Positions 3,874 through 44,000 of a DNA stretch of 64,000 nucleotides are shown in pieces. The DNA comes from Liolophura sinensis (Eukaryota; Mollusca; Polyplacophora; Chitonida; Chitonidae). Position 1 is the stretch's first letter. Each line of letters opens with the position of its first letter. Under the pieces are notes generated by a model. The model was not told the origin of the DNA. It made no database searches and worked only from the letters and a program-made list of their open reading frames with translations. The DNA is taken from assembly GCF_032854445.1 (NCBI RefSeq), contig NC_088303.1, forward strand, positions 441,501 through 505,500, written 5' to 3'. The translations under genes and the position numbers were made by a program.

Positions 3874-6323
3874 TCAGTTCCTTTTCATTGACAGGGAGGA
3901 AAAAATCACCTTATGCCTTTCAAACTGCTTTGACCGCCTGAAATTCACATCTGTGCCGTGTAACCAGTCCAGTGTCCCCAGCACTCCGTAATTCTGGTTA
4001 AACCTATACATAGGAAAATATCAATTTCAATGTCAGAACATGTAGGCCTACATTAATCTTTCACTTCCAAGAAATTCATAGGGCTTCGGGGCATAGGGTT
4101 TTGGAGCATAAGATTCCAAACAGATGACTTTAGTCCTCTAAGGCGTCGTTCGATCTGGTCTCATGCACACCCTCGATCTACATGTATATACGGTCGCGAG
4201 TTCGAATCCATTATACCTGGTGGCTGCACCTTTTAGTCAGGGAGTTTGACAAGAACCCACAATGGGTGAAGCTTTCAACTGATCCACTGTCCTAAGGTAT
4301 AAATCTTAAGGCCACCATAAATCTTACAACCACCGTATTACGGAAAACTTCTTGAATATGGCATAAACCCCAATTACAAAACTAAACGTTACTTCCATGG
4401 CTTCCAAACAGCCTTCTCACAAGGTTGATAGCCTTTTCTTCAAAGAAATATGTTTCAGAACATTGCGATTTTGGTAACAATATTTTAAGCTAGGCCACAC
4501 ACAACAATAATAGTCAAAGTCCGTGCAAGAACAAATAATGGGTAAAAGGCATCCAGTTGTCAGCTCAGAACGCCGATAAACAAGCATATACAACATACTT
4601 TGACTCACTTCAGATGGTGATAATCGTGGAACTCCGGGGATGGGAGCCCAGGGAGATGGTACCCGCTGTGGTGGATCACCGTGAACGCCAGAGCTATAGA
4701 GTACCACAGCCACGAAGTGACGGGGTGGGCACCACACAGTAAGGGTCCGGCCGCCAGGGGAAGGATGTTAGATAGGAGGAATTCCACGGGGTGAGCGTAC
4801 ACAGCGACCAGAGCAATTGGTGCTGTCCACTCGTGGTGCTGCTTGTGTATGGCCTTGTAAAATACCGGCAGGTGCAATAACCTGAAATCAGCTGAGGTTA
4901 CAACTTACAAGTATACTCTTCCTTCTAAAAAGATTAATACAATCTTCTATGTATCTGAGCTGACTATACTGGTTTATGCCGATATTGGTTTGATCTGTCG
5001 TAAATGGTATCGTGTGTCTTGGTACTATTTAGTTTAGCGCTCAGCATTCAGGGATAGTCTGAATACTGATCAACTCGGTGTGATCATGTTCGGTGATTAC
5101 CCCTGACGCGATGTTTGATGGTTTCTGCATGGGTTAATTAGCAAATTCCTTGAGTCATAATTCGAACGTAGTTTAATTGTATGTGTAAAACATTCGATAT
5201 ACGATATAAAAATATTGAGGAAAGTAAATATTGATTATAGTATACCTGTGGGAATAATAAAAACCAATCTCTTCCACGAGGGCAAACAGCACGAGTTGAG
5301 TGAGTATTTGTGATGCAGAAGGTATGTCAGCCGATACTCGCATCCCATGCGGACCTGGGCCGGGTATAACAGACACACACACGGCACACCCACAACCAGC
5401 TGGTTAAATACCACAGAGCGGAGAACTCTTTTCAGCTGCTCCAAGCTAACCTGGAAACCCGAAAAGACCTCAACTGACAACGACCTATTACACGGAATCC
5501 GATTATTTTGTGAGGTAGGAGTTATCCCCCCCTTTAATGCCGCCCATCAAATGCCACTTTGATGGAGATCAAAGTGCTGGTTACCTGCTTACATTTGACG
5601 TCGAATTATTTTAGTTAGCCTTTCTTCGTGACCACAGCAAAGGTCCATGCTTTCATATTACCGATGTAGCATGGAAGCCGGATGAGGACATCTAGCCCTC
5701 ACCCGCCTGTCGCTGCTAGCGGTTCGAGAAAATCACGGGCGATTTGCATCGTCCTCTTGCCGCTGGGCGCGGGCAGCGGGGCGCGGGGCGACATGTCCTC
5801 ATCTGGATTCCATTATAGAACCCATCTGATGAATTATTAGTAAATGTGCGTTAAAGAAACAATGTAGTTTGGTGAATTTAACAACAAAAAAGTGGTAGAC
5901 AATTATTTTACTGAACGAAAAGAGTGCCAGCATTTACGGTGACAATAAATCAGTCTTGTAAATGACATTCAGAGCCAAATTGACTTCGCAGAGGCTACTG
6001 TCTTGAAAGTTTGGGGTTGTATCAAAGAAACCTCTTACTTGATGTTAAAAGCAGAAAAAATATAAACATTTGGCAACACTTTTCTTTTTTCTACTTTTGA
6101 CTGGTATTTTCAGTAAGAAAAATCCTACGCTGTTTTCACAGCACAAATGTTTTGTAATTGTAAAATTGTTTTTGCTGTTTGATGAAAAGTAATGCCTTAC
6201 TGGCGCGTTTCCGTTAGGTTGTACTTTGTAGAGTCGAGTCCATGCAGGGCATCCTGTGAGATCAATCACAAGGAACAGACCAGCGCTCAGCCAAAAAAAC
6301 ACATGTAAATACCATCGTCGTGC
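3874..6323 (-). CDS. FAXDC2-like: FAXDC2-like fatty acid hydroxylase domain protein (partial, frameshifted)
   Basis: Four C-terminal exons join cleanly: 6323-6201, 5450-5246, 4881-4609 and 4003-3874 (stop TGA 3876-3874). All have AG acceptors and GT donors; donors are gtaagg, gtatac and gtgagt. The joined product has a membrane segment (VFFWLSAGLFLVIDLTG), then the histidine boxes of the di-iron hydroxylase/desaturase superfamily: SHRLLH (spanning the exon 2-3 junction), HKQHHEWTAP, HHSGYH and HDYHHLK. It ends with FNQNYGVLGTLDWLHGTD. Order and spacing match FAXDC2, an ER sterol/fatty-acid hydroxylase relative; the substrate here is inferred only. Exon 5450-5246 is 205 bp where 206 is needed: one frame reads VFNQLVVGVP...LLYP and the -1 frame reads SADIPSASQ...ALVEEIGFYY, so one base seems missing near 5345-5375. 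Amino-terminal exons, expected above 7085, were not found. It is either a recent pseudogene or an assembly indel. Confidence 0.88.
4130..4390 (+). mobile_element. Old tRNA-derived SINE in FAXDC2-like intron
   Basis: A B-box-like stretch 'gcgagttcgaatccatta' near 4197 is followed by a body and an ending 'cttgaatatggcataaacccca', which resembles the SINE tails in this window. It lies between exons 4881-4609 and 4003-3874, antisense to the gene. Diverged, boundaries approximate. Confidence 0.5.
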
Positions 6324-7085
6324 CTGTATCGAAGGCAAAATAATCACTGGTCAGCCAGAAAATACAGATAAATACCAACGTCGCACCTGTATAGGAGACC
6401 AAATAATCACCGGTCAGCCAGAAAATACAGGTAAATACCAACGTCGCACCTGTATAGGAGACCAAATAATCACCGGTCAGCCAGAAAATACAGGTAAATA
6501 CCATCGTCGTACCTGTATAGGAGACCAAATAATCACCGGTCAGCCAGAAAATACAGGTAAATATCATCGTCAAACCTATATAGGAGACCAAATAATCACC
6601 GGTCAGCCAGAAAATACATGTAAATATCATCGTCAAACCTATATAGGAGACAAAATAATCATCGGTCAGCCAGAAATCAAAGGTAAATACCATCGTCGTA
6701 CCTGTATACAAAATAAAATAATCACCGGTCAGCCAGAAAACAAAGGTAAATACCATCGTCGTACCTGTATAGAAGACAAAATAATCACCAGTCAGCCAGA
6801 AAGCAAAGGTAAATACCATCGTCGTACCTGTATACAAAATAAAATAATCACCGGTCAGCCAGAAAACAAAGGTAAATACCATCGTCGTACCTGTATAGAA
6901 GACAAAATAATCACCGGTCAGCCAGAAAATACAGGTAAATACCATTGTCGCACTTGTATAATAGACAAACAGATCAGCGGACACCCAGAAAATACAGGTA
7001 AATACCATCTTCGTACCTGTATAGTAGACAAAATAATCAAAGGTCGACCAGATATTACAAGTAAATGCAGTGAATATTTTGGTAT
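6324..7085 (-). repeat. 63-bp minisatellite carrying the FAXDC2-like 3' splice site and exon start
   Basis: About twelve tandem units of 63 bp. On the minus strand each reads a short pyrimidine stretch, 'tatacag', 'gtacgacgatggtatttac', then 'ctgtattttctggctgacc'. The real exon at 6323 starts right after the same 'gatacag' and reads 'gcacgacgatggtatttac' and onward. The unit is thus the acceptor plus about 40 bp of exon, repeated upstream. Since 63 is a multiple of three, both strands stay open for about 250-280 codons; I regard these as by-products. Confidence 0.92.
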
Positions 7086-7465: not shown

Positions 7466-7830
7466 AGTGAGTGAGTGCTTGGGGTTTAACGTCGTACTCA
7501 ACAATTTTTCAGTCATATGACGACGAAGGAATCATTAGGGTGCATGCACGTGTAATTGTGCCTCCTTGTTGCAGGACGGATTTCCACCGCTCTTTTATTT
7601 AGTGCTGCATCACTGAGACGACTTACCGAAGGCAAGTAAGCCTCCCCGCCCGAGCCATTATACTGATACGGGTCAACCAGTCGTTGCACTATCCCCTTCA
7701 TGCTGAACGCCAAGCGAGGAAGTTACAACTTCCTCTTTTAAAGTCTTAGGTGTGACTCGACCAAGGATTGATCCTGGATCTACCGGTCCCGAAGCGGACG
7801 CTCTACCAACTGTGCTATCCGGGCCGGTAG
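7466..7830 (-). mobile_element. Near full-length tRNA-derived SINE (type B)
   Basis: On the minus strand it starts with a tRNA-like head ('ggatagcacagttggtagag' as A box and 'ggatcaatcc' near the B box), has a conserved body, and ends in 'cgttaaaccccaagcactc' with ACTC repeats. A related copy lies at 32726-32945. The family looks like a mollusc SINE. Confidence 0.85.
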
Positions 7831-9955: not shown

Positions 9956-12900
9956 ATGGTGTTTCTATATTTTGCATACGGCTCAAACCTTTTGAGACAG
10001 CGTCTTCTTTGCAACCAATCTGGCCAGCTCAAACGGTTTAAGGGAGTTGGGAAACTGCAGGTGAGAAAAGTAAAAACAGAAATTCCTGTATGTCTGTGTG
10101 GACAATACATGTTGTCAAATGAAGGAAAGAATTGAAGTGAAATAAAGATTCAGCAGAAAGAATTTTACTGTGAATTAAACCTTAGTACATCCTATTACTG
10201 TTTGATCTCCGTGCACATTCATTAAAAATCAGTGTGGCTTTGTCTGTCCATCCTTCCATCCTTCCATCTGTCCATCAATCCATCTGTCCATATGTCTGAT
10301 GATTGGCCAAGTCCAGTTGTCACATGACCACTGGTCAAACAGCTCATGTGGACCTAAAGTCCAGAGAATTGTCTGGCATCTGCTGTGGTTACAAAAATTC
10401 TTGACCAACGAACCTGACTGTAATTCAAAAGAAATACACTTACTCTGATTAAAGTCAGAGTAAGCAGAGTTAAACACATGTTTTATTGTGCACAGGACTT
10501 TGTACCAATGCTGTACATGTTTTATTGTGTACAGGATTTTGTACCAATGCTGTACATGTTTTATTGTGTGCAGGACTTTGTACCAATGCTGTACATGTTT
10601 TATTATGTACAGGACTTTGTACCAATGCTGTACATGTTTTATTGTGTGCAGGACTTTGTACCAATGCTGTACATGTTTTATTGGTTTTATTGTGCGCAGG
10701 ACTTTGTACCAATGCTGTACATGTTTTATTGTGTGCAGGACTTTGTACCAATGCTGTACATGTTTTATTGTGTACAGGACTTTGTACCAATGCTGTACAT
10801 GTTTTATTGTGTACAGGACTTTGTACCAATGCTGTACATGTTTTATTGTGTACAGGACTTTGTACCAATGCTGTACATGTTTTATTGTGTACAGGACTTT
10901 GTGCCAATGCTGTACATGTTTTATTGTGTACAGGACTTTGTACCAATGTTGTACATGTTTTATTGTGCACAGGACTTTGTACCAATGCTGTACATGTTTT
11001 ATTGTGTACAGGACTTTGAACCGATGATGATATACATGTGTTATTGCCTACAGGACTTCAAACCCATCCTCTTCATGTTTTATTGTGCACAGGACTTTGA
11101 TCCATTGCAGCAAGTGTTTTATTGTGTACAGGATTTTGTACCAGTGCTGTACATGATTTAATTGTGTGCAGTTTTTGGAACCAGTGTTTTACACATTATA
11201 TTGTGTGCAGGACTTTGAACCAATGTGTTACATGTTTTATTGTGTGCAGAGCTTTGAACCAATGTGTTATATGTTTTAATGTACGCAGGAGTTTCAATCA
11301 ATGTGTTACATGTTTTATTGTGTGCAGGACTTAACAAAGATCTAACATGTTTTATTGTGTCCAGGACTTTGAACCATGGTTCATGTATCAAATGTTTTAT
11401 TGTGTCCAGGGTTTGAACCAAGATGCATGTATCAAATGTTTTATTGTGCCCAGGATTTGAACCAAGGTGGGAGTATCAAGTGTTTTATTGTGCCCAGGAT
11501 TTGCACCAATGTGTGTGTATCAAATGTTTTAGTTTCCCCAGGATTTGGACCAAGGTTCATGTATCAAGTGTTTTATTTTGCCCAGGATTTGGACCCAGGT
11601 GGGTGTATCAAATGTTTTATTGTGTCCAGGATTTGAACCAAGGTGTGTGTATCAAATGGTTTATTTTGCCCAGGATTTAAACCAAGGTGGGAGTATCAAG
11701 TGCTTTTTTGTGCCCAGGATTTGAACCCAGGTGGGTGTATCAAATGTTGTATTGTGTCCAAGATTTAAACCAAGGTGGGTGTATAAAATGTTTTATTTTG
11801 CCCAGGATTTGAACCCAGGTGGGTGTATCAAATGTTTTATTGTGCCCAGGATTTGAACCAAGTTAGGTGTATCAAATGATTTATTGTGCTTAGGATTTGG
11901 ACCAATGTGTGTGTATCAAATGTTTTATTGTGCCCAGGATTTGGACCAAGGTGTATGTATCAAATGTTTTATTGTGCCCAGGATTTGAACCCAGGTGGGT
12001 GTATCAAATGTTTTATTTTGCCCAGGATTTGAACCATGGTGGGAGTATCAAATGTTTTATTTTGCCAGGATTTGAACCAAGGTGGGTGTATCAAATGTTT
12101 TATTGTGCCCAGGATTTGAACCGAGGTGTGAGTATCAAATGTTTTACTGTGCCCAGGATTTGAACCAAGTTAAGTGTATCAAATGATTTATTGTGCTTAG
12201 GATTTGGACCAATGTGTGTGTATCAAATGTTTTATTGTGCCCAGGATTTGGACCAAGGTGTATGTATCAAATGTTTTATTGTGCCCAGGATTTGAACCAA
12301 TGTGTGTGTATCAAATGCTTTATTGTGTCCAGGATTTGAACCAATGTGTGTGTATCAAATGTTTTATTGTGCCCAGGATTTGGACCAAGGTGTATGTATC
12401 AAATGTTTTATTTTACCCAGGATTTGAACCAAGGTTCATGTATGAAATGTTTTATTGTTCCCAGGATTTGAACCCAGGTGGGTGTATTAAATGCTTTATT
12501 GTGTCCGGGATTTGAACCCAGGTGTGTGTATCAAATGTTTTATTGTGCCCAGGATTTGAACCAAGGTGCATGTATCAAATGTTTTATTGTGCCCAGGATT
12601 TGAACCAAGGTGGGAGTATCAAGTGTTTTATTGTGCCCAGGATTTGAACCAATGTGTGTGTATCAAATGTTTTAGTTTGCCCAGGATTTGGACCAAGGTT
12701 CATGTATCAAATGTTTTATTTTGCCCAGGATTTGGACCCAGGTGGGTGTATCAAATGTTTTATTGTGTCAAGGATTTGAAGCAAGGTGTGTGTATCAAAT
12801 GGTTTATTTTGCCCAGGATTTAAACCAGGGTGGGAGTATCAAGTGCTTTTTTGTGCCCAGGATTTGTACCCAGGTGGGTGTATCAAATGTTGTATTGTGT

Positions 12901-15187
12901 CCAAGATTTAAACCAAGGTAGGTGTATCAAATGTTTTATTTTGCCCAGGATTTGAACCATGGTGGGAGTGTCAAATGTTTTATTTTGCCAGGATTTGAAC
13001 CCAGGTGGGTGTATCAAATGTTTTATTGTGCCCAGGATTTGAACCAAGGTGTGAGTATCAAATGTTTTACTGTGCCCAGGATTTGAACTAAGTTAGGTGT
13101 ATCAAATGTTTTATTGTGCTTAGGATTTGAACCAATGTGTGTGTATCAAATGTTTTATTGTGTCCAGGATTTGAACCAATGTGTGTGTATCAAATGTTTT
13201 ATTTTGCCAGGATTTGAACCCAGATGGGTGTATCAAATGTTTTATTGTGCCCAGGATTTGAACCAAGGTGTGAGTATCAAATGTTTTACTGTGCCCAGGA
13301 TTTGAACTAAGTTAGGTGTATCAAATGTTTTATTGTGCTTAGGATTTGAACCAATGTGTGTGTATCAAATGTTTTATTGTGTCCAGGATTTGAACCAACG
13401 TGTGTGTATCAAATGTTTTGTTGTGCCCAGGATTTGGACCAAGGTGTATGTATCAAATGTTTTATTTTACCCAGGATTTGAACCAAGGTTCATGTATGAA
13501 ATGTTTTATTGTTCCCAGGATTTGAACCCAGGTGGGTGTATTAAATGCTTTATTGTGTCCAGGATTTGAACCAAGGTGTGTGCATCAAATGTTTTATTGT
13601 GCTTAGGATTTGAACCAAGGTGCATGTATCAAATGTTTTATTGTGCCCAGGATTTGAACCCAGGTGTGTGTATCAAATGTTTTATTGTGCCCAGGATTTG
13701 AACCCAGGTGTGTGTATCAGATGTTGTATTTTGCTCAGGATTTGAACCAAGGTGGGTGTATGAAATGTTTTATTGTGTCCAAGATTTGAACCAAGGTGAG
13801 TGTATCAAATGTTTTATTTTGCCAAGGATTTGAACCCAGATGGGTGTATAAAATGTTTTATTTTGCCCAGGATTTGAACCCAGGTGAGTGTATCAAATGT
13901 TTTATTGTGCCCAGGATTTGAACCGAGGTGTGTGTATTAAATGTTTTATTTTGCCAGGATTTGAACCAAGGTTCATGTATCAAATGTTTTATTTTGCCCA
14001 GGACTATGAGCTGAGGTTTAAGGGTTACACTTCAAAGAGCTGGAGTGGTCATCCGGCCACTATTGAGGCATGTCCTGGCTCAGATGTCTGGGGTGTGGTA
14101 TGGGAGTTAGAGGACCAACTGGCACAGGCTCTGGATGAGTATGTACACACTCCACCATACATCATGCCGACACCCTACCTGCCTTCCCCAACACCCCTAA
14201 GCCCTCCCCCTCCACCTCATGCGGACACTAAACCTGCCTCCCCCTAACCCCAACCCACACCTCATGCCCACACATGCGTCTTCATAATTCACTGTAAAAG
14301 TGGGCCAAGCCTTTAAGAGCTGGTAATCTTGGTCCTCCCTTCCTTTCCCCTAAGGGCATGAAGATAGACAAAGTATTGGACAGCCCTAGACTGGTCGTGG
14401 TGTCAAGATTGGTGTCATTGGCATAGCCTTTGAGTGAGGCAGCACTACACATATGCCAGTATTGAGAGACCTGCCCTGTTACAGGAGACAATAAATGAAT
14501 AATTTATACGTTATTTCCACAATTTTTATTAAACATTTGATCTGTGCTAATAGTTTAAGTGAATGGCTTGAGTACGGCTTTAAAAAACAATGAAGGTAAT
14601 GAATAAATACTCCATATAAAGTGTTACACTCTCCATGTACGGGATGTTTCCGGTTTATGCACCATATTGTTTTTGTTGAAATTTTGTTCTGTTCCATCAT
14701 TTGGAATGAAATTGTCGACACTGAAAAATGAAATAAAAACGAGCTGAATGAAATTAAAAGGCACTGATAAGCTACAAAATGGTATCGAAACACCGGAATG
14801 AATGTTTTATGTTCATAAATGTGAATAATTTCAGATGTTTCAAGATAATCGATTGCTCTTGCCTGATATTCGTTTTCGTGTGTAGGCAAGAAAAATCTTA
14901 TGCCAAATTCTCCGTGTCGGTCACGCTGCAATCTGGCATGACTGTGGACTGTGTGACTTACCAGATGTCAGAAAAGAACCGTCGAAGAGACCGGCGTTCC
15001 TTCGCCGCAATACCTGGACGTCATACGGCGTGGTGCCCGGCAGAACGGACTACCGTCAGAATACAGGGACTGGCTGGACCGTCAACCTCACAACAATAAC
15101 CCGGGACCCGTACCCCTCTACAGAAAGGTCATGGACCTGATACAGAACGACCCTTCTTGTAACCAGGATATAGACAAGTTAACATAG
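9956..15187 (+). CDS. GGCT: Gamma-glutamylcyclotransferase (frameshifted in exon 3)
   Basis: Three exons: 9956-10060, 14002-14138 and 14886-15187 (stop TAG 15185-15187). GGCT cleaves gamma-glutamyl amino acids to 5-oxoproline in the cytosol, in the glutathione cycle. Exon 1 begins MVFLYFAYGSNLL, the substrate-binding YGSN loop at the usual N-terminal position, which supports the ATG at 9956. Exon 2 gives LQDYELRFKGY and VWGVVWELED. The exon 2-3 junction rebuilds LDEQE, the stretch with the family's catalytic glutamate. Exon 3 gives DCVTYQM, then, after a +1 shift, SPQYLDVIRRGARQNGLP. Introns have phases 0 and 2 with good donors (gtgaga, gtatgt). Exon 3 is 302 bp where 301 would fit, so one extra base lies near 14975-15000. 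Length (about 181 residues) suits the family. Possible 5'-UTR intron acceptor at 9921-9934. Confidence 0.92.
10229..10290 (+). repeat. Short 'ccatc' pyrimidine repeat
   Basis: Imperfect repeats of tccatccttccatctgtcc in intron 1 of GGCT. Confidence 0.7.
10478..11345 (+). repeat. 39-bp minisatellite in GGCT intron 1
   Basis: About 22 units, very regular until 11020 and then diverging. The unit reads 'atgttttattgtgtacagg' then 'actttgtaccaatgctgtac'. Each contains a pyrimidine-rich stretch and a CAG|GACTTTG that mimics the true acceptor and start of exon 2 (CAG|GACTATG at 14002). With a 39-bp unit, three plus frames and one minus frame remain open. Confidence 0.95.
11346..14001 (+). repeat. 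44-bp minisatellite ending at the GGCT exon 2 acceptor
   Basis: About 60 units of roughly 44 bp containing 'aatgttttattgtgcccagg' and 'atttgaaccaaggtg'. The last unit runs without a break into exon 2: 'caaatgttttattttgcccag' ends at 14001 and the exon starts at 14002. Higher-order structure is visible. Blocks near 11897/12204 and near 13114/13333 repeat several units together, so duplication took place in multi-unit steps. It appears to be a diverged continuation of the 39-bp array. Confidence 0.95.
14380..14500 (+). mobile_element. SINE fragment (type C body) in GGCT intron 2
   Basis: 'ggtgtcattggcatagcc' and 'gtgaggcagcactacacat' resemble the central body of the SINE at 16745-17095. Short, diverged. 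Confidence 0.4.
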
Positions 15188-16744: not shown

Positions 16745-17095
16745 AGGAAGGCCGCTTCGGTGGCCTAATGGTTAGAGCGCCCCCCCCCCCCCCCCCCCCA
16801 CTCGAAGCCTTGAAACCTGGGATTAAACTCTGGGTAGAGTCCACCAGACTTTAAAACTGGTACTTTTTAAAGTGCTCGGCGCTCAGCACTGAGGGGTTAG
16901 AGGAAGCAAACTTGACTGGTTGGCCCATGGTAAATATGACGTGACTGGGTGGGGTGTCATGTGTGGTGTCTTTAGTATGATATTTCAATGGCGGCAGCAC
17001 TTTGGCGGCATGGGCTCGTCCTGCCACAAGACGACACACCTCGTCGTCATATATCTGAAAAAATGTTGAGTATAACCTAAAACCCCAAGCATACT
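16745..17095 (+). mobile_element. Full-length tRNA-derived SINE (type C) with poly-C insertion
   Basis: Head 'ggtggcctaatggttagagc' is an A box. A run of about 19 C follows at 16781-16799. The body holds 'gactgggtggggtgtcatg' and the 3' part 'cgtcgtcatatatctgaaa', ending in 'ctaaaaccccaagcatac'. The body is the likely source of the tandem repeat at 58735-59055. Confidence 0.8.
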
Positions 17096-18836: not shown

Positions 18837-19190
18837 GATTATAACCTGTTTAAAGAGTATATTACGGGGGGGGGGGGAATTCCTTGAAACGTACTAATGA
18901 CTTTAAATCCACCGAAAACAATAGATTTACTGCCCTAGCCGATGCCCAGTCGGCCGCCCGTCACGGCGGTGCAACTGAACGGGTGATGTCAAAGATGGCT
19001 AACACAAGTACAGCTTGGAATTCATATCAAAGCGATGTCATTTTAGAGATGGATTCTAGCTACACAGAAGTAAATATACTGCCATTTCAATCTGAACTCA
19101 CAGTGGACGACGTTGAAGTTCCGTTTTATGACACTGACATCTGGCCAGATTTCAGATTCAGAGTTTTTCTAACTTTTATCTTTGTCCAGT
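18837..19190 (+). mobile_element. Dispersed repeat, copy 1 (partner at 32029)
   Basis: About 330 bp align by eye with 32029-32390: both run from 'attataacct' through 'atgactttaaatccacc', 'cagtctgaa(c)', 'gacgatgttgaagttccg' variants, to 'atctttgtccag'. In this copy a frame reads through most of it (18884-19417, 177 codons). The other copy is interrupted. Preceded by a poly-G run (18867-18879). Family unknown; it may be the remnant of a retroelement ORF. Confidence 0.7.
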
Positions 19191-20104
19191 CATTTCAACC
19201 GCACGATCAATACAAAGCTATAGCTTTATCCTGTATTACTCTGCACATTTCGTGTGTTCATCTCAAGATTTCATATTTATTTTCTATTCGTTCCCTTTGT
19301 GTACTTCACAATCAGTATCATTCTATTACCCGAGATATTTTAAATTCATACCTGTTTTGGTGGGTACAAAATCCTTCGACATGCTGTAAATCCACATCTT
19401 ACCGAGGATCAAAATAAGATCGAGCCTAAAAGCTTTCGTTGTGATGGGGAATCGTAAGATTTTGATGAGCTAGAATCCTCTAACAGCTCAAGAGAATGGA
19501 AGATGTTCGGTTTAGATGAGCGCGAATCACTTTTACATAGACTCAATCCCGAATCAGGACAAGCAAATCGACGCGCTGAATGTCTATCCAAACTTTACAT
19601 CACTCTACAACATACATATTAAACCGCTAGTCCTTCTCTGTATTTTCTGGTTGGTATCAAACTAGATTTACCTGTGTAGGTATAAAAGGTATTTGAGATA
19701 GTTACTTTCGCCTAAAGCTTTGCTTTTTTGTAGGGGTTGTTGGAATGAACAATGGTTGTGATGTTTGGCTGATAAAATATCAAACGTCTTTGTAAAATAA
19801 AATAAAGACCAAAATTTCCTATTAGTTTCAATCCATATTACATTTTGATTGTATTTTACAGATTACGAAAGGTCTCAGAAATGATGTGATACAACGTAAG
19901 TGGATCGGATTTACAAATCATCATATAGCGACCTCGTTTATGGACTATTTTCATCCAGGGGTGAATGGTCTCACGTTGTACAATGAACGTTGAAAGACAC
20001 GATGACTAGCGCATGACTTGTAATTTGACGAAGGCTATACGGAGTTAAGTTAACATTTACTATCTGACCACAAAACGTAGGGCGGATTGTTCCCTTGTCA
20101 CATC
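19191..20104. other. Upstream region of ninjurin-like gene
   Basis: No coding exon supported. The promoter and 5' UTR of the ninjurin-like gene must lie here, but I see no clear TATA box that decides a start site. Confidence 0.4.
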
Positions 20105-22416: not shown

Positions 22417-24450
22417 GTAATAATACGACATTTCCACAGTGGTGATGATTATGAAAGATAATACAGTAAGCGTGCAGAAAGTGTTTGCATGCATATGACA
22501 GATATTGACAATTTTGTGCATGTATAAATAACTTTTTTCTAAAACCTCCATAAAATATAAGGTAACAATAATTTTTTATGAGCACGGAATATTCAAATCT
22601 GATAAACCTAAGACAAACAATAAACCAATAAGATTTCACAACATAGGCAAGAAATATTCAAACTTGTGAATACAAGTTTAAGCAGTTTAGATCCTCTGGT
22701 CCTGTTTATTCAAGATTTATGTTAAAATGACGGGCTTAAAACTTGTATATAAACTTAGTTCTGAACATCTTACCTAAATAGACACCAAGTTCCTTGTAAT
22801 CTGTGTTGTGCTATATTCAGTTATTCCATCAAAGACAAACAAATCGTGGATCGTGCAGAAAGCTTTATTTATCTTGCTGTTTGTAAGAGCATAACGTTTT
22901 TTATATGGTTGTCAGAGTCATATAACAGCGTCTGAGTACCGAGAGAGAGAACACCAAATATTTCATATTGTATAGGTCAGGATCCAGTTTCACAGCTTAG
23001 TCGAGTTTTGATATCGAATACTTTTGTCGCTAAAGGTAAAAGATTCTTGGCCAATCATTTTGACCTGTCAAAAATGTTGACATTAATTTGTCAGTCAGCA
23101 ATCTTTCCGTGTTCCAAAGGCACAGATGACACCCATTCCTTTAGGATCTTCTTATATTCACGATATTTTTTGTGAAATTCCCACGTCATAGTATACATGG
23201 TACAATAGAACTTGTTTACACCTTTAGCGATGAAAGAGTTCGAACTCAAAATATTTTTCGAACGTTTTCGAGGTTAAACATACCGCTAGATGAGTAACGG
23301 GGAAGCAAATGACGGGGAAGAAATGTGGCGATGCTTCACACTGTTATGTCGGCATGACAGTGCTCTTCTTTGGTTGACTAATCATCTATTCATCTGGATA
23401 TGTAAGGAGTTTTCAGCAGTAAATTTGATATTTTGATTATGCAATGTATTTACTGTACATTTACTGAATGGAAATGTTTTGGAAGTGACATCGCCGTTCG
23501 CCCCAATACAGCTCAATCGCGATGTTCTGTTAAATACGACCATGTGAGTTGAACGCCCTTGGCCTGAGGTCTGTTCCTTTCATGGTGCATTCACTTATGC
23601 CTCGCCGAGGTCCATACCATCAAGCGCATGTCCAAAATGTCGGATCAAATCTAATACAACTCCATTGGTCCATGCAAAACCAATCTAGTAGACAAGCAAA
23701 TGTAGACAAGCAAATGTAGACAGGCAAATGTAGACATAAAATACACATTTAGGACAAGTACATGTGCTTTATCAAAGCATAGATTGTTTACATTCTATAA
23801 CCAACAACACTTCGTCGTTTTTCGTGATATATTTACTAGAAAACTAATACTGGCGCTTTAGTTAATTTTTCTTATCCTTTATTGGTTATCAGTTCTTTAT
23901 ATAGAAATACGACGTGAAAGAGCAAAGTCGGAGAGTTTGTACAGCAGCCAACATGCTAGCTACCTCCGTTTAATGAATTGTACATGAATGGACATTATTC
24001 CGTAGCTCTAGCGACCAGTGTCCTGCATTACTCGTGTTCAGGGAGAAACAGTGGGTGCTGTGAATCAGGTTTGGGCTTCAGGAAAACATGTAATTAATTA
24101 AGCACTGTTACCCTTGAGCAGGCAACAGATTGCAAATCCAGTCACAGCGTTTCCCAATAGTTTGGCCTCATTAATGACGTTTGGTTACGAGTTTGAATTA
24201 ACAAGGATAGATATTGTGAAACAGATCTTAAAGATGTGGATCGCGATTTACCACTGACATTACATTTCCCTGACATAAATGTCCTGTTGATTCCCGCCCG
24301 AAAGCGCCCTGCTTGTTTTCTGCCATGTCCTGCTGTTGTTGAGCAACACCTGACAGCGTCTACAGGTGTAAAGGTTCTTAGAAGTGAGTAAGATGCTGGG
24401 GTACCAAAGAATCCCAGATTGTCACAAACTCTGTGACAACATCGGCTTAC
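22417..24450. other. Region between convergent genes
   Basis: The last trehalase exon (expected to read QEGFGWTNG-like) should lie downstream of 24451 on the minus strand. I searched for it by eye and did not find it. A short 16-bp repeat (gtagacaagcaaat, about four copies) sits at about 23688-23740. Confidence 0.4.
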
Positions 24451-27400: not shown

Positions 27401-30400
27401 GGTTTCTACCCACCATAATGCTGGCCGCCGTCGTATAAGTGAAATATACTTGAGTACGGCGTAAAACACCAATCAAATAAATAAATAAATCAATAGCTGG
27501 TTAAACACCAAGCACACACTCACTCACTCAATAGCTGGTTAGTGAGGAATATACTGCCCTTGCTGATTCCGCTGTGGATTCAAGGAGATTTGTCAGGAAC
27601 GTGTTGTTATGTGAACTTATTTTTAGCTTTCTCCTGTGAAGCAGAGAGACCTTTGTGGCATATGGTTAGCGTTTGAGCCCAGCACCATGAACCAGGAGTC
27701 TCTCACCCATGTGTTCGCTGTGATTTCAAGCCCAGCTCGTGTACTGACTTTCTCTCGGGTTGCACGTGCAAAGGAGTCTGCCAGCAACCTGCGAATGGTC
27801 GTGGGTTCCCACTTGGCTCTGCCTGGTTTCCTACCACCATAATGTAAGTGTAAGAGTATAATGTAAAACACCTATCGAATGAATAAATAAATTTAAAGTA
27901 GGGGCAATGTTGTGAACCAGCTGTCTTTAAGTAAGATTACTATTGTACTCATTACTATTGTATATATACTGGAAACAATTTAAACATAAAACTACATGAA
28001 AATGAGTGCGCTTGTCCATCTGTAGAAAATTTCATACCGTAAACTTGTCTCTTTTCTGTGGGACTCACCTAAAGATATTTCACACCATTAACTTATGTTT
28101 TGTGGCACTCACCTGTGAATATGATCCCGTTAACTTGTGTTCTGCAGGGCTCATCAGTAGATATTTCCCCCTGTCATCTTCTCTGAGTTCTGTGGGGCTC
28201 ACCTGTAGATATTTCACACCGTCAGCTTGTCTGTATTCTGTGGGACTCACCTGTAGATATTTGACACCGTCAACTTGTGTTCGGTGGGGCTCACCTGTAG
28301 ATATTTCACCCCGTTAACTTGACTGTGTTCTGTTCTGTGGGACTCGCCTGTAGATATTTCACCCCGTTAACTTGGCTGTGTTCTGTGGGACTCGCCTGTA
28401 GATATTTCATCACGTTAACTTGGCTGTGTTCTGTTCTGTGGGACTCGCTTGTAGATATTTCAACTCGTTAACTTGGCTGTGTTCTGTGGGACTCGCCTGT
28501 AGGTATTTCACTCCCTTAACTTGTGTTCTGTGGGACTCACCTGTAAAGATTTCACACTGTCAACTTGTCTGTATTCTGTGGAACTCACCTGTAGGTATTT
28601 GACAACGTCAACTTCTGTTCTGTGGAACTCACCTATAGATATTTCATCACGTTAACTTGTGTTCTGCGGGTCTCATCTGTAGATATTTCACACGGTTAAC
28701 ATTTTGTATTGTATAGGGCTCACTTGTAGATATTTCATCCGCCTAACTTTTGTGGGACTCACCTGTAGATATTTTGCACCGTTAACTTTTGTTCTGAGAG
28801 TCTCACCTGTAGATATTTCAAGAACCGTGCCTCTTTCTGAGCTTTGGAGCTTAGTGTTGTGCCATGACAGCCAGCAAACATTGGAAACCCCGCCGAACCG
28901 TAGAAATACTGTCTGGGTATGTTATCCTCAAGGTCATAATCAAACCAGCAACCATAATGGTCGTCCCAAAATATAGCCTCTATAGCTTTTGCGCGGAGCG
29001 TAGCTTGTTGATCAAAATACGTCCGGCGGTCTGTATTTCCTGTAGATACCAGAGCAGTATTTTGTCAGAAATGTACATATAAACAGCCAGTCACCCGCCC
29101 TAACAATATATGTGCCGAGCATTGACTAATCGACGACACTGCTAAGGCCGTTTGAGCAATCAGAGACGTTATGAAAACCGATTGTCTTCAACGAATATAG
29201 AGTTCACATGGGTTCACATGTTGCAATCTCCGTCAGTAACTTGCCACAGGTTGGTGGTTTTCACCAGGTATTCCTGTTTCTTCCACATAAACATTCCACC
29301 GTGTGTACAGTATCAACGGAAAACTGGATGCTATCAAGGAACCTCGATGATCTATTATTGATTGCTGCGACACAACCGGTGGTATAGGATGGATGAATGG
29401 ATGCTTGGGGTTTCACGTCGCACTTCACAATGGCACAATGACATAAATTCTGACTTCTTGTGGCAGGGTAAGTAAATGCGATCAAGGTGCTGTCATCAAT
29501 AAAGACACCAAATATGACACCCCATCCAGTCAGACTGTACTGACACCGGGCCAACAAGTTCTGTTTCCTTGTTATTACCTATCAGTATTTATCGGGGCGA
29601 GTTAGGCTAGCGAGACATTCATGGCAGGTAAAATATTATATACTGTTTTGTAAAGATGTTGTTATACAACAATAACATTCAACAGATCTTACAAAGCGAT
29701 CCTCCCATACAGCTTGGCCAGGCTGCACTAAGGTACAATGGAGATAACCAAAAAACCTGTAACATGTAACAATCTGACATACCCACTCTCTCATTCAGCT
29801 TAGTCTGATCGCACTAAGGTACAATGGAGATAACCACAGAACATGCAACATGTAACAATCTGACATACCCACTCTCCAATACAGCCAGGTCAGGCTGTAC
29901 TAAGGTACACTGGAGATAACCAAAAAACCTGTGACATGTTACAGATCTGACATACCCACTCTTCCACACAGCTTCGCCAGGCTGTACTAAGGCACAATGG
30001 AGATAACCACAAAACCTGTGACATGTGACAACATGTCTGACATACCCACTCTCCCATACATCTTGGTCAGATTGTACTAAGCCACATTTGAGATAACCAC
30101 ATAGCCTGTGACATGTAACAAATGTTACATACCCACTCTCCCATACGGCTTGGACAGATTGTACTCACCACAATGGGGATAACCACACAGCCTTTGACAT
30201 GTAACAATCTGACATACCCACTCCCACATACAGCTTAGCCAGGCTGTACGAAGGTACATTGGAGACAGCCAAAAAACCTGTGACATGTAACAGATGTAAC
30301 ATACCCACTCTCCCATGCAGCTTGGCCAGGCTGTTCTATGGTACATTGGAGATAACAACAGAATGTGTGACATGTGACAGATCTCACATACCCACTCTTT

Positions 30401-33400
30401 CATACAGCTAGGCTAGGCTTACTAAGTTACGATGTAGATAACCACAGAACCTGTGACATATGACAGATCTTGCGTACCTACTATTTTGTACAGATTGGCC
30501 AAACTGGACTCCATCATGTACATAATGCTATTTAGGTCTACAGGGACGATCTGGGATGTGCGGATACCGGCGAGGGACATTTTGTTGGGGCCTGAACGAC
30601 GGAGCCACCGGGAGGAGAAGTCCCAGCCCGACTCACAGGCTGCCCTGAGCTCTGAGTAGCGCTTTTCTTCGGCTGGAAAGAGATATCAGGAAATGAAAAT
30701 GTAAATTTTTTTACCTGTCTCATAGGACAAACTCAACAGAAGTATTTTAAATGTAAAAGCTAGCTTTGTTATCCTGGGTTTTGGCCCACGAATATTTCAG
30801 CATTTTCCACGAACAGATTGCTATATAAAGCGCACCTTTCACATACTATAGAAAAGTTTCTTTTCACCTTTCTCCCAGAGAAAGTACCCTACGGATCACC
30901 CCCCGAAACAAAGTACAGGTTTGTTTAATATATATCAATGATTTCTACCAGGAAATCGAATTCGAATTCACAGTATGTATTAGATAAATTCACAATCATA
31001 ATAGAACCAATTCACCTAGCCACCATACAACCCTGAAAGCGCTGTTGGACACTAATGACATACCAGTGGACATTTGTGTATCGCCTGTGTACATACCAGT
31101 GGACATTTGTGCATCGCCTGTGTACATACCAGTGGACATTTGTGTATCGCTATAGAAATATTTAGAAATGGGATGTTTACTCTCATCTACGTGACAAAAT
31201 CAGTGATATTCATTTTTCTGGTTTAGAATTTTCGACACCCTTTGAAAAGCGTTTAAAGCAGGGTAATATACGGTGTTTTCTGACACCAAGTAATCTGATC
31301 TCACCTCATTTTATCTTATTTGCCTACACAATTTTCTGTAAAATCATCCCCGCTAAACTACTATATTACAATCATCCTAATAAGGTTTAATCTTAGGGGC
31401 TCAAGGCAATGTGAGATACCATCGGAATGTATGGTCTCAAAATGTATGCTCACCCGCCATGTACGCAAAGACATGTGTTGGAAATCCATACCTTTAAGAA
31501 ATATGCTCTGGTCTTCTTTGAAAGATTCGGGGCTGAAACATGGAAACGTTACGATCATCGACGTCGGTTCAGTGTCAGTGTATTGATTATATAATTGTTA
31601 TTTATTGAGTGTTTTACGACATACCAAAGACAGTTTTACTTATTCGACGGCGGGCAGGCTCATCATTTGGACAGGTGATAAAAAAAGGATACTTTCAAAT
31701 TATTGGATTCTTTCCGTTTTCCACAGATTTCTATGAACCTTAAATTCATTCAATTGTTTAAAATGTCTGGAGGGCTTAATAAACCATATAAGGTGTTAAG
31801 GGTACTCTGCTCTCAAAAAGACTCTCCCCCCCCCCCCCACCCCCACCAACGTTTATTGTTGGTCTAGTTCATATTACGCAATTGATTACTTAAAGGCTTA
31901 GTGTCCAGATTTAAATTTATTTATTTATTTGATTGGTGTTTTACGCCGTACTTAAGAATATTTCACTTATACGACGGCGGCCAGCATTATAGTTGGTGGA
32001 AACCGGGCCAGATTTAAATACTGGCACTAATTATAACCTTTTTAAGCAGTACGTTTCTGGGAGGGCTTCTGAGAACCGTAACAATGACTTTAAATCCACC
32101 AAAAACAAAAGATCTCCTGTCCTAGCCGATCTCCAGCCGGCCGCCCGCTCCTGCTAAGCGGGTGACGTCATAGATGGCCAACCCAAGCCTAGCTGGCCTA
32201 TATAGCCTGGGGATTCCTATCAACACGATGTCATTTTCGAGGCGGATTCTAACTACACAGAAGCAAATACACTGCCGTATCAGTCTGAACCCACAGAGGA
32301 CGATGTTGAAGTTCCGATGTATGAAACTGACATCTGGACAAACCTCAGATTCTGAGTTTTCAGACTTTGAATGATCTTTGTCCAGGCATATCCAACCTTA
32401 TTAAGGCTTATATGTATTTACCGTTCGTTCCCTCACAAGAAATATCATTCTATTCCCTGCAGGATTCAATATTGATACCTACATGCGATGACAACTACCG
32501 GAACATGTTACTGTCGGCATTCCGAATTCAGTGAGTGAGTGCTTGGGGTTTAACGTCGTACTTCCGAATTCAGTCGTGTACAATACAAATGTATGTAGGA
32601 TATGGAGGCCGACGGTACAGATACATGTAAGATATGGACGCCGACGTTACAAATACATGTAAGATATGGAGGCCGACGTTACAAATACATGTAAGATATG
32701 GACGCCGACGTTACAAATACATGTAGGAGTGAGTGAGGTTTAACGTCGTCCTTAACAATTTTTCAGTCATATGACGACGAAGGTATCGCTAGAGTGCATG
32801 TGATGTGCCTCCTTGTTGCAAGATGGATTTCCACCGCTTATTTATCCAGTGCTGCTTCACTGAGACTCCTTAGCAAAGGCAAGTAAGCTGTTCCGCTCGA
32901 GCCATTATACCAGTACGGGTCAACCGGGTTGGAAGCCGATGGTAAAAATACTTATAGGTTATTGGACTGTATGGTCCTTTATGGATGAGCCTGGGCGCCC
33001 AGGAAAGGGACGAGCTTGCGAGTCCCTTTCCGTCGCCCAGGACGAGTGGAAAATGGAATTTTTTATACACCCACTAGTCAAAAACGTAAGTAATTAAACT
33101 CGAACGCTAAACAAATTGGGTAAAACCGTACTAATTACTAATTACTAAATACTGCGGATGAATATGGGATACTGAATGGAGAACTTTCATTGGCTGACGG
33201 AAAAGTGGGTCAGACGCAAGTGGCCGAAGCGGTATTACAGAAGTGTAAAGAAAAGGAATGTAGATGTTTCAGTGAAAATTAAAAGTGCAGTTATTGAAAA
33301 CTGCGCCACCAAACAGACTAGTGTAATCTTCACAGGGTGAGGACGAAAGAGAAGTAGAGTTTGCTGACAAAGTTAGCTGATTATCCTTGGGATTCTGTGC

Positions 33401-35059
33401 GGAAGTTGATGGCATTGGAGTCGGGGAAAACTTCGTTTGTGTGCACTTGAACTGACCGGCCAGGGAGTGTAAGTGATGATGGTTGACTGAAGGCGCGATT
33501 GCCCTGAAGTAAACTCGACATTTGCTTCTACTCTACGTGATCTAATTTAGAATCATACTCCTGGATGCTAGCAAGGGATATGTGTCCGGTGACCTGCATA
33601 ATCGGCAGCCATGCTTGCTGTGTCGTCTGCTTGTTGACAAACAAAAAGTAGTCCATACGTGTGACGTCACAGTTACAACTGTCCAATATATTAAAAAATA
33701 TTGGGCAGTTGTGTTTACTACGTAATATAGGACCGGTTTTGGTACCGGTCTCCTATTGTGGGAGTTTTTCGCTTTTCTTGCTTTTTGTGACGATCGTTTG
33801 CTGGGGGGCTTGCATAAGAAAGAAAGAAAACTTCGACTGTAAAAGTGGAGAAAATAATAACGCACAGTTAAAAAAACAGAAATCCTCCGCGTCCCTTCTA
33901 CGGATCCATAGTTTTTCAGTTCAGTTAATAGTATTTTACTTGTACTGTGTCATTGTGGAAATTCAGCTGTATTCCTGTCCCCACTTTCGACTGTAAATGG
34001 CTAGAGCAGATACGGCTGTTTTCGGTGGGTTAAAAATCCTTCCTTCTGATGTAAATCCACGCCTTCCTTGGGGCCAAATCGTGTGGAAACTTGAAAAAAC
34101 TAACTTTCAAGAATATTCGATGACCTGTTTTACAAACGTATGCAGAACAGCAAACGATTTCGTGTAGAAATTCGTTATGCTCGTCGACTTTCTTGTAGCT
34201 CTTTTAAAACTGAACAAAATGGCGAAGCTCTAACAGCTTGTGAAGGTTGGACTTGTATGACGTAAATCGGCGGAGACTACCAAGCGTTAGCGGAAAAATA
34301 CTTAAAACCCGCCTCATTATCTAGTGATTTTAAGTGCCATATTACTCAGAATAATGTACCCTTTTCCCACACTCAATTTAACAATATGTAAGGGGTAGCT
34401 AATTATGAACAAATAATGAGTCAGGACACTAATTCTTTAAATAATATTTTTAAAGACTTTGCCTGTAGTAAAAAGAAAGAAAGACCGTCACGTGACGTCA
34501 GAATACCACTAGCACTGGGGTTCAAACTGCTAAAAGCTACTTTTCAATTGGAACATTTGGCTGCCTTTAAATCAATAATTCTACAAAAAAAGGCAAAACC
34601 TACTGACCCAGGAGCCTCTCACCAATGCGGTCGCTGTGAGCTCAAGTCCAGCTCATGCTGGCTTCCTCTCCGGCCGTAAGTGGGAAGTTTTATCAGCAAC
34701 CTGCGGATGGTCGTGGGTTTCCCCCGGGCTCTGTCCGGTTTCTACCCACCATAATGCTGGCCGCCGTCGTATAAGTGAAATATTCTTGAGTACGGCGTAA
34801 AACACCAATCAAATAAATAAATCTTGTTGAAGTAAATGACCAGTATTAATGGCGGGACAATACACGGCCAGAATGAAATGAGCATCAGGAGAAAACTGTC
34901 TACTATGGTCAAACGTCACATCATCATTGTTTTCTTTTGCTTTTTTTTTTGTCTTTTTTTTTTACATTCACCTAGAGGCAAATCTCTTTAGGACCTTATT
35001 TAACTAATGTTTCAAGTATCCCATGGGTAATAAGGAGAACCATAGAATTCAAGCTCGCT

Positions 35060-35098
<39 letters not shown>

Positions 35099-38000: not shown

Positions 38001-41000
38001 TTCACAAGCTGACTATTCTCCACAACCCAGGGCTGTTTGTCCGCCATTCACACGCCCACTATTCTCCACAACCCAGAGCTGTTTGTCCGCCATTCACACG
38101 CTGACTATTCTCCACAACCCAGAGTTGTTTGTCGGCCATTCACACGCTGACTCTTCTCCACAACACAGGGCTCTTTGTACGCCATTCACACGCCCAATAT
38201 TCTCCACAACCCAGAGCTGTTTGTCCGCTATTTACACTCTCACTTTTCTCCACAGTCCAGGGCTGTTTGTCCGCCATTCACAAACTGACTTTTGTCCACA
38301 ACCCAGAGCTGTTTGTCCGCTATACACACTCTCACTTTTCTCCACAACACAGAGCTGTTTGTACGCCATTCACAAGCTGACTTCTCCACAACACAGGGCT
38401 GTTTGTCCGCCATTCACAAGCTGACTTTTCTCCACAACCCAGAGGTGTTTGTCCGTCGTTCACACGCCCACTATTCTCCACAACCCAGGGCTGTTTGTCC
38501 GCCATTTACACGCTCACTACTCTCCACAATCCAGGCCTGTTTATCCGCCATTCACACGCCCACTACTCTCAACCCACAGCTGTTTGTCTGCCATTCACAA
38601 GCTGACTTTTCTCCACAACCCAGAGCTGTTTTTCCTCTATTTACAGCCCCACCATTCTCCACAACCCAGAGCTGTTTGTCCGCTATTCACACTCTCACTT
38701 TTCTCCACAACCCAGGGCTGTTTGTCTGCCGTTCACACGCCCACTATTCTCGACAACCCAGAGGTGTTTGTCCGCCATTCACACGCCCACTATTCTCCAC
38801 AACCCAGAGGTGTTTGTCCGCCATTCACACGCTGACTATTCTCCACAACCCAGGGCTGTTTGTCTGCCATTTACACTCTCACTACTCTCCACAATCCAGG
38901 CCTGTTTATCCGCCATCCACACGCCCACTACTCTCCACAACACAGGGCTGTTTGTCCGCTATTCACAGCCCCACTATTCTCCACAGCCCAGAGCTGTTTG
39001 TCCGCCGTTAACACGCTGACTATTCTCCACAACCCAGGGCTGTTTGTCCGCCATTCACACGCCCACTATTCTCCACAACCTAGAGCTGTTTGTCAGCTAT
39101 TCACACGCCCACGTTTCTCCACAACCCAGGGCTGTTTGTCCGCCATTTACACGCCCACTACTCTCCCCAACCCAGGGTTGTTTGTCTGCCATTCACACGC
39201 TCACTATTCTCCACAACCCAGGGCTGTTTTGTCCGCCATTCACACGCCCACTATTCTCCACAACCCAGAGGTGTTTGTCCGCTATTCACACTCCCACTTT
39301 TCTCCACAACACAGGGCTGTTTGTCGGCCATTCACACGCTGACTTTTCTCCACAACCCAGGGCTGTTTGTACGCCATTCACACGCCCAATATTCTCCACA
39401 ACCCAGAGCTTTTTGTCCGCTATTCACACGCCCACTTTTCTCCACAATCCAGGGCTGTTTGTCCGCCATTCACAAGCTGACTATTCTCCACAACACATGG
39501 CTCTTTGTACGCCATTCACACGCTGACTTTTCTCCGCAACCCAGAGCTGTTTGTCCGCTATTCACACTCTCACTTTTCTCCAAAACACAGGACTGTTTGT
39601 CCGCCATACACACGCTCACTATTCTGAACAACCCAGAACTGTTTGTCCGCCATTCACAGCCTCATCTGGTTCTTAATAGTTTATCCGTAGTAAATGGTTT
39701 AAATGTGACAAAGTCTTATACGAATGAATTAGAATGACTATAAACAAATTGATCCACTCACCTGTTGATTTCTTTCTTTCTTTATTTATTTAATTGGTGT
39801 TTTACGCCATACTAAAGACTATTTCACTTATACGACGGCGGCCAGCATTATGGTGGGCGGAAACCGGGCACAGCCCCGGGGAAACCCTCGACCGTCCGCA
39901 CGTACGGGTGGAGAGGAAGCCATCATGAGCTGGACTTGAACTCACAGCAAGCGCACTCACCTGTTGATGAGAGAGACATAGTTCCTCAGTATGCCCTTTA
40001 CAGACCAGCTCATTTGACACAGCAGAAGACCTTTGATTCCCCAGTAAGTGTCCCTGAGACAAACACAAATATCTTCCTGAAGTATTTTACTAATTTTTCC
40101 AAGGCAAACATGCATACAACCGACCACTGATTTCTGTTCTCATAATAATGTCTGTAACGACGTTTGTTCCTATTTGTGATATGATTGTTGATTACTAGTA
40201 ATAAATTTCATGACCTAATGAAAATATCATAAATTAAAAATTAACTTACGAACAGATTAGTCTAAGTGATCATTAATTTAACACATAAATTAGGCCTTCA
40301 TCAGTGGGTCTCATTTTAACGAAAGATAAATCCAAAAGAACTTCCTTTCAGTTTCATAAACCCGAGACTCATGTCTGGCTCACTCTACGGGCACTCACCA
40401 CACATTGCCACCGAGTCAAAGCGAAGAGAGGACACAACGTGATACCAGTTTTCACATAAACGCTTATCAGATCAAGGTAGAATAGTGATTTTATCACCTT
40501 TCACACGCGTGTCCGTTAACGGGTGAATGTAGCTATAGAAAAGCTGTTTCACCAGCTTTCTCACTTGTTAGTTAACAGAATAAGGTCGAAAAGTGGCTAA
40601 CCAGCTTTCATACTTGTTGGTTAAGAGAAATAGGGTAAAGAAGTGGCTATTGGTTGACGGCTGGTATATGAATGTCTGTCACCGCATTGATTTACCAGGT
40701 TTTACACACAGAAATAGGTAAGTCACCGGTTCACCAGCTTCCACACACGCTGGTTAACAGAACAAGGTAAGTCAGTGGTTCACCAGCTTTGACACACGTT
40801 GGTTAACAGACCCAGGGTAAGTCAGTGGTTCACCAGCTTTCACACATGTTCGTTAACGGAACGAGGTAAGTCAGTGAGTTCACCAGCTTTGACACACGGT
40901 GGTTAAGAGAAATAAGGTAAAGAAGTGGTTTTACTAACGCTCACATATATTACATAACAGATCATGATGGTTAACGTGCTTATATGATTTTATACCAGCT

Positions 41001-44000
41001 TTTCACACACACACACGTGTTGAAAAGTTTTATCAGATTTCACACATGTTAACTAACAGGATAAGTTAAAAGAATGGCTTTTCCAGCTTTCTCACATGTT
41101 AGCTAACAGAACAAATCATTTTACCAGTAAAACATCTCTCGGAATCGTCCGCCAGGAATGAGGAAGCTGTGTGGTAGAGGCAGAAGTGAGTAGCGCTGGG
41201 GGTGGATGGCTACATCTGGTATAGTCTGAAAATGTGGAGTGATTTATTACTTGACTGAAGGGTTGATCGACGGATCGATGGATCGAATAATTGATTGATC
41301 GAGTGATATTTTATCTGACTGGTTGATTGATTGATTGACTTATAACAATATTTTTAAATTGAGGTCGATCGCATCCGGACATTATAGACGATTCCTCTTA
41401 CATATACGCATATTAAATACTCCCCTTGGATAGGTGATTTGGTTGTCTTTGATACCACAAAGAAGATTTATTTATTTATTTGAAGTACCAAACAGGTGAA
41501 ACGGTGGGTCTAGTGCAGGCAGAGGTCTTCTCCCTTGAGCTTACCCTTTTAAACAGGCTTCTCCACACATTATTCAGGTGAGATGCCCACAGACGTATTT
41601 CCGGGTTTTTGATATCGTTCAAAAATTTCGGACTGCATAAAGAAACAGATGTGAATAAGTGTATGGCCTGATTTTGAATAACTGATGAACACAGATATTT
41701 TATGGAAGAGAGTTCTTTATTTTACTGTGTGTCATTTTGTAATTTGTAAACAATATCCTTTTAAACAATAGTCTTTCAGCGAAAACAAACCTAACCTGAT
41801 AGTGTATTTTACCATCTTTCCAACCTTAAGATGAGCCAAGACTGCTGATTAAGACAGGATTCCCTTTATAATACAATTAGATGGCTGGGTGCCTTGAAAA
41901 CTAACTACTGTGACATCACAGTGAGCACAGAGATGTGGTAAGCCTGAAATCTTTCCTTCCTTTAATTGCGGGGAAAAACATATCTCAGATGATAGACCAT
42001 TAAACACTATCCAAGAATAAAATTAGATTTTTTCCAGCGAAATATAACGCTTTTAAACATCAGAATCTACGGTCATCTAAGAAACTATTGGGTGCCAATG
42101 TCACGTCTATATATTTATTTGAAATAATGCAGTCGCGGATTGATATGCAGAAGTTTAATAATTTGTGCGCATTAAGCGAAATCCTGAGATTCAAGATGCA
42201 GGTTGGAAAAGAGCATCGTGCAACCAATGGTTCACATCTATTATACTCAGTTGAAAAAAAATCACAAAAAGAATACATTAAACAATTGCCAGCACAATGT
42301 TGAATGACTTTTCACCTGACATATAATTCATGCTAGCGTTTTCTTTGCCATTTATACTTTGACGATTGGTAGTGCCCACCTTTCTCGCCAGTCCTCTGGC
42401 TTGACGTACTCTGTATCCGATCCCGGAGGGCCAAAGTTCTCCTCCACAAAGAGTCTGACAGTCTCTTGATCCGGGTGATCAGGCAAAGCCTCAAAACGCT
42501 TCAGTATCTCATCTGACAAGAATGAAAACATAGAGTGTGTTCACTGTGGAACCAAGGAATATGGCTTTAATTGGCTGTTGTTAGAGATAAGCAAGTCCAG
42601 CCTATACCTAGCCTAAGCTATTAGGAATGGTAATGGTAATAGATTTTTTAAGCATTACCAAGGCTGAAAGATTTAACCTAGGAAACCCTTTCTCCATTGT
42701 CGGCCAATTAGCGTGGATTCTTTATCCTTTCAACACAGTATTCAAGACATTTTCACCGATACATCCGTGGTCACTGGTAGGTGAAACTGGGATACATCAA
42801 GGAAAACTTCTTCAAGGAAAACACTTCTTTCTCAGATAAAAAAGACCTGGCTTCACTCAATAAACAATCTGTTCATTGTAACAGAAATCGGTTGCCTGAT
42901 TGATGCTAGATTATATTATGTCATAATAAATTACTACTGTGATATTCATAGAATTTAACACAAAATTCTGCCAGTTTAGTGTAACATTTACGTTCAGTGC
43001 ACAGAATATGTGAGTTATATTTAACAAAATAATCTGCTGCAAAAATAGAGTACAATCCGCAATCACCAATCAACTTTTGTCTTAAATTTAAGAGATTATT
43101 TTGGAGAATTCAAGCCGAACCAGACATGGCCACATTCGAGCGTGCTGCTTTGGCCTCAATGTTCCAGCTCTGATTAGCAATGAGGACAACACACTTAAGC
43201 CATTTGACTGCACTATTAAAAAAGTAGGGGGTATCAACACAAACTGGAATATCTTCTTTCAAGTAGTATATGTGTTCCCACGCAAGCAAGCAACAGCCTC
43301 ACATATGCATCGCTATAGTGTCTCCACTATACTCCATACCCATTTAGTCCAGATCTGTGTAGTCCTTGATAAATGGGGTCAATTGTTAGAATCTAGCTCT
43401 AGTTGGCTCCACGCTCTTAGCCTTAATGGTGCTGTAAATTTGCGAAGAACGCCACTTTTATCCGTGAATAAAAAAAAGTTGAAAGGGGTATTCACTGAGT
43501 TAAAATGGTGTTAACATGATGTGCAGATTTATGTCAATCTGCCATTTTTACCCATTATGCACCCCTATGTAGGAAGGTGTGAAGCAAGCTGTGAAGCAAG
43601 CTGTGAAGCAAGGTTATCTGTCATATGGTTATATAATAAGGCTGGTGGAATGTATATTTCTCTCTCATATCGGTGTCATCATAACTAGATCAGTCAGGAG
43701 CATGTTTACGTATATGGGATTTTTCCCATGGCCGTAAAATCCATGCACATGTGACATGCATATTGATTTATTGGAATAACACTACATAATATTGTAAAAC
43801 GTTGGTTTTCTGGCAGAAAATGCCCAGGATAGAGATGACATCATTTCTGCTTTTTTAAACATACCAAATCTCTGTCATAAATATAAATATTGTGGAGAGC
43901 AGTGTTAAACTTGCATTATTTTATGTCAAGATTTATTCTGGATAATTGGATGTCAGCTATTTGCACTGAGTATTATTGTAAACTTGTATACTGGATAACT

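Follow-up and report, generated by a model that had tools for sequence, protein, structure and literature searches.

Several minisatellites in the DNA analysed here, a window of 64,000 nucleotides, lie against splice junctions of unrelated genes. This raises the question of whether their units really contain a piece of exon together with its splice signal, and of whether such arrays are found at junctions more often than random placement would give. The answer depends on how well the junctions themselves are placed. Four animal genes can be read from the window, namely a FAXDC2-like gene, GGCT, ninjurin and a trehalase of 12 exons. The trehalase gene (minus strand) was put together as a spliced model, and its junctions are well placed because the 12-exon product aligns to the PDB trehalase 7e9u (query residues 20-519, E=4.3e-100). 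It also aligns to the bacterial TreF and TreA models, with both scores below the model cut-offs. Its reading frame is open over the full length, which agrees with regular splicing and says nothing beyond that. The two genes of the plus strand were recognized by a match to human gamma-glutamylcyclotransferase chains (GGCT) and by a match to PF04923 (ninjurin). In the FAXDC2-like gene (minus strand) one exon matches FA_hydroxylase (E=2.7e-12); the remaining exons, exon a among them, are presumed with human FAXDC2 as the guide. The coordinates of the arrays and of the exons beside them are collected in Table 1.

Table 1. Tandem arrays at or near splice junctions, and the neighbouring exons (positions in the window)
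Feature	Position	Strand	Basis
63-bp tandem array, units hold acceptor and about 36-37 bp of FAXDC2-like exon a	6287..7066	-	TRF; exon start from the frame, an acceptor-like signal and human FAXDC2
39- and 44-bp tandem array ending at GGCT exon 2 acceptor	10476..14003	+	TRF
14-bp array, 3.5 copies, ending 4 bp from trehalase exon L acceptor (23684)	23688..23736	-	TRF
44-48 bp tandem array, units hold end of trehalase exon I and donor	28020..28820	-	TRF and alignment
86-bp tandem array, units hold end of trehalase exon H and donor	29681..30470	-	TRF and alignment
49-50 bp array, degenerate copies up to trehalase exon D donor	40551..41124	-	TRF 40551-40649, 40708-40930
FAXDC2-like exon a	6201..6323	-	start less certain, 6285 possible
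GGCT exon 2	14002..14138	+	human GGCT chains
Trehalase exon I	28807..29039	-	12-exon model and 7e9u alignment
Trehalase exon H	30478..30672	-	12-exon model and 7e9u alignment
Trehalase exon D	41125..41225	-	12-exon model and 7e9u alignment

Within GGCT exon 3 a one-base frame change was found between its two conserved parts (about 14960-14990), which may be a sequence error, an allele or decay. Hidden genes beside the other arrays were sought with Pfam in six frames of 46.7-64 kb and none was found above its family cut-off, the single sub-threshold match there being CYRIA-B (E=0.079). In all, the Pfam scans covered 14.2-24.1 kb and 46.7-64 kb on the plus strand, and 1-9.9 kb and 37-64 kb on the minus strand. 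A tRNA finder gave no tRNA genes. Repeats of other kinds are also present. A tRNA-derived SINE on the minus strand has a tRNA-like head at 7753-7824 (Rfam tRNA 29.2 bits, cut-off 29) and reaches about 7460, and stretches related to it lie near 17041-17091, 32530-32562 and 32727-32925. A second dispersed repeat occurs in 13 places counting the query. Two further stretches, 18838-19200 and 32030-32397, form a dispersed pair that is 75% identical, and at 52991-53104 about 114 bp form an inverted repeat, matching its own reverse complement at 85%.

The preliminary description of this DNA held that the tandem unit contains a real exon-intron junction in four places. For the donors of trehalase exons H and I this is confirmed: the unit spans a genuine exon-intron boundary. 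The last exon bases are 30478 in H and 28807 in I, and in register with these junctions the unit matches 17/24 exon bases of H and 14/15 of I. Copies were also looked for without regard to register, by aligning the 30 junction-side exon bases to the adjacent intron over at most 1500 bases, with 300 shuffles as the control. This free search was applied to 34 junctions (22 of trehalase, six of the FAXDC2-like gene, four of GGCT and two of ninjurin), a set drawn up without the exon A acceptor, the FAXDC2-like exon b donor and the exon expected between b and d. Three junctions gave p<=0.010 and the other 31 gave p>=0.15. The I donor reached p=0.003 and the H donor p=0.010, a value that is weak on its own amid 34 tests and with which the junction-anchored tests agree. 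The match of 17/24 was reached by a fraction of 0.00005 of 20000 random segments, and against 580 donor-like controls the H donor gave p=0.0017 (mean) and p=0.0052 (best copy). Moreover, the units keep the phase of the H junction, the spacings from junction to copies being 86, 87, 87, 85, 87, 90, 87 and 86. Exon segments taken 24 bp deeper gave no match in the free search at H (p=0.37) or at I (p=0.41). Conservation of GT in the H and I units was not counted as evidence, as the units had been picked by that motif.

The acceptor of FAXDC2-like exon a is as clear in the sequence as these two donors, with 21/24 exon bases matching the unit and p=0.003 in the free search, although the exon start is less certain. 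Like the H and I donors, it also exceeds the junction-anchored controls. The probable start at 6323 depends on the reading frame, on an acceptor-like signal and on human FAXDC2 as the guide. An alternative AG downstream would make 6285 the first base of the exon, right beside the array edge; the array would then still abut exon a, and its unit would hold less exon. The segment deeper in exon a also matches (p=0.013), the exon part of the unit being long there. Only one other deeper-segment control fell below 0.05, the GGCT exon 1 donor (p=0.017), where there is no junction array.

At the GGCT exon 2 acceptor (14002), the fourth place, the case is weaker. The intron part of the last unit is close to the array, and the exon part matches the unit at 9/15 positions, or at 10/14 with one gap chosen afterwards. 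The free search of the adjacent intron found no copies of exon 2 beyond those in shuffles (p=0.917). Support for exon content comes from the junction-anchored tests only, with p between 0.004 and 0.012 and control fractions of 0.0059, or 0.00045 with the gap chosen afterwards.

A fifth array had been said to abut the exon D donor. Its copies do reach the junction at 41125, but its exon content is doubtful: the free search gave p=0.98 (0.983), one register gave 0.13, and the value of 0.007 belongs to a register chosen afterwards. The array beside exon L, which the preliminary description does not name, showed no exon content in the free search (p=0.61). Exon E was considered as a further case and rejected, since 303 bp separate its 46-bp array from the donor and the units are unlike the exon end (p=0.18). 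The preliminary description had also placed the start of the arrays at the junction. This did not hold. The edges lie instead some 14-45 bp into the exon, by TRF 14 bp in I and 37 bp in FAXDC2-like exon a, and by alignment about 40 bp in H.

The exon E donor holds a truncated SINE-like repeat (39755-39968, minus strand) whose 15-bp target-site duplication spans the junction, so that the donor sequence is present twice. An insertion of this kind, duplicating a junction as its target site, could have founded the arrays as well, and the exon E insert is an example of such a duplicated donor. However, no SINE-like sequence was noticed by eye in the array units, and the array near exon E, as noted, does not resemble that exon. 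We regard a transposon origin as extremely improbable.

Between the FAXDC2-like, GGCT, H and I arrays the units are unrelated, and each array was therefore founded separately. No alignment between them exceeded shuffles, the lowest p being 0.229 among pairs from different genes or junctions of the four arrays (15 pairs were tested overall). The view of a recurring process and not of one spreading family is thus supported. Within GGCT the two units are related (p=0.003), and among the same 15 pairs the D unit gave p=0.013 with the 44-bp GGCT unit and 0.033 with that of I.

The junction-spanning arrays are probably minisatellites of the 'mirage' type, that is, tandem duplications across a junction that were amplified where their copies stay intronic. 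Each of these arrays is on the intron side; part of the adjoining exon recurs in its units together with the splice signal, and both are in register with the true junction. The exon is likely to be the source and the array the copy, because the exon, unlike the units, is part of a conserved protein. The first step would have been the tandem duplication of a short segment lying by chance across an exon-intron junction. One copy would stay attached to the exon and keep coding, while the others, on the intron side, would be spliced out and so free to increase in number through slippage or unequal exchange. Extra intronic copies would carry no cost while the terminal copy is the one used in splicing. 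The arrays are not seen to expand into the exon, presumably since the protein would change. Slippage or break repair at junctions, and survival of those expansions alone that remain intronic, may both be causes; the second idea fits the anatomy because the copy that runs into the unique exon is the terminal one.

No evidence was found for a function of the arrays, and a tolerated by-product is the likeliest description of them. They could, for example, act in splicing by offering decoy or reserve sites in clusters. The I units do carry a full-consensus donor, and the splice AG is kept in 97 and 93% of the GGCT units (45 units) and in 100 and 91% of the FAXDC2-like units (12 units). However, this conservation is about that of the mean position (91%) and not above it, so that in these units the AG is neither lost nor favoured. 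Moreover, translation continued beyond the H and I donors runs into stop codons within the arrays, which would make the use of decoys harmful. A role in splicing is accordingly very unlikely.

Whether mirage-type arrays gather at junctions beyond chance is a separate matter. Overlapping TRF rows were joined by hand, which gave 30 arrays with a period >=12; the rows at 35059, 45738 and 48058 (period <12) were dropped before the counts. Together the 30 arrays cover 25% of the window, and in 25 of them both edges lie more than 50 bp from all of the 34 junctions. When every array was collapsed to one unit and the founders were placed at random, 0.42-0.75 junction-spanning arrays were expected, depending on the region and on the minimum overlap. 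The probability of finding two was 0.07-0.17, of three 0.009-0.04 and of four 0.0009-0.007. As the window had been chosen for its look, all these enrichment values and those for the edges are optimistic. Arrays with an edge within 10 bp of a junction numbered three against 0.67 expected (p 0.029) and those within 20 bp four against 1.3 (p 0.037); within 50 bp there was no excess in the window (five against 2.7, p 0.13).

The enrichment that the preliminary description had left to be measured is thus modest within the window. Where about a quarter of the DNA is minisatellite, some duplications would span junctions without any preference, and the anatomy described above would be just as real. 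We give this reading a little under an even chance. The absence of an excess of edges within 50 bp speaks for it, as do the two homology-placed cases, H and I, which alone are not significant in a selected window; the three to four junction-spanning arrays, set against the number expected, speak against it.

The same modest excess would also follow if junction DNA were a preferred founder of arrays; slippage or break repair close to splice sites could bring this about, or else processes linked to transcription. Donor-like 9-mers (>=7/9, either strand) were present in 13 of the 19 array units, where matched segments gave 3.6, and still in 9 of 13, against 2.2, when the six junction arrays are removed; examples are the units of 1-477, 40708-40930 and 63150-64000. 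These counts concern 19 consensus units and not all 30 arrays, and the motif was chosen after the units had been inspected. The motif does not favour either strand with respect to the host gene, and it was not singled out by an unbiased scan of 5- and 6-mers in the array units, in which the best 6-mer was CATGTA. Donor-like motifs were for these reasons dropped as proof of a junction origin, and a preference for junction DNA seems to us rather unlikely.

Minisatellites spanning exon-intron boundaries are already known from amphioxus, where they were named mirages, a link that the preliminary description did not draw. The two reports list Adh3, the globins BflGb6 and BflGb9, PGBD5 and TnC as the genes concerned (PMC3087553, PMC3902484), and in lancelet PGBD5 exons 3 and 4 are associated with 60- and 108-bp repeats, Adh and TnC being named as well (PMC3902484). 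As described there, the likeness to the arrays of the window is close. Units hold exon and intron over a real junction, donor or acceptor, in unrelated genes, many of them keep the splice signals, and the true exon lies at the end of the array. The copy number differs, with up to about 60 copies in the window and two to seven units in amphioxus globins and PGBD5. Amphioxus mirages are reported to keep regular mRNA splicing. Instability of mirage length between alleles or cells is reported for Adh3 and BflGb6.

The anatomy being known, what may be new is only the lineage, perhaps a mollusc. The tRNA-derived SINE and the second dispersed repeat have a molluscan look, and a repeat pattern had no hits in genome_contigs or viral_contigs, which speaks neither for nor against it; repeat strings found no papers. 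In a mollusc the lineage would be the novelty, and in an amphioxus the arrays would be further examples of a known feature. Among the matches listed from the open-licence literature, no title or abstract mentioned junction-spanning minisatellites outside amphioxus. In abalone TSSK1 a 27-bp minisatellite lies in intron 3, and the available text does not say that it spans a junction (PMC6905558). The globin authors suggested that new introns could be made from duplicated splice sites (PMC3087553). Were arrays of this kind common outside amphioxus, they would be a natural source of such duplicated sites. It is only a tentative and somewhat doubtful generalisation that junction-seeded minisatellites occur widely in animals beyond cephalochordates, with junction DNA as preferred founder, and stock splice sites for new introns and exons.

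Two other systems, in the parts of the reports available, share some of these features. CeRep25B of C. elegans is likewise a minisatellite in introns near splicing decisions, but a single family spread over the introns of many genes, and it is not described there as local copies of exon borders (PMC4039745). Intron gain by tandem genomic duplication, with a duplicated AGGT (PMC3443670), resembles the arrays of the window in that a tandem duplication carries splice signals. In that case the duplication affects a stretch of exon and gives rise to a new intron, whereas in the window an existing junction has been multiplied into an existing intron.
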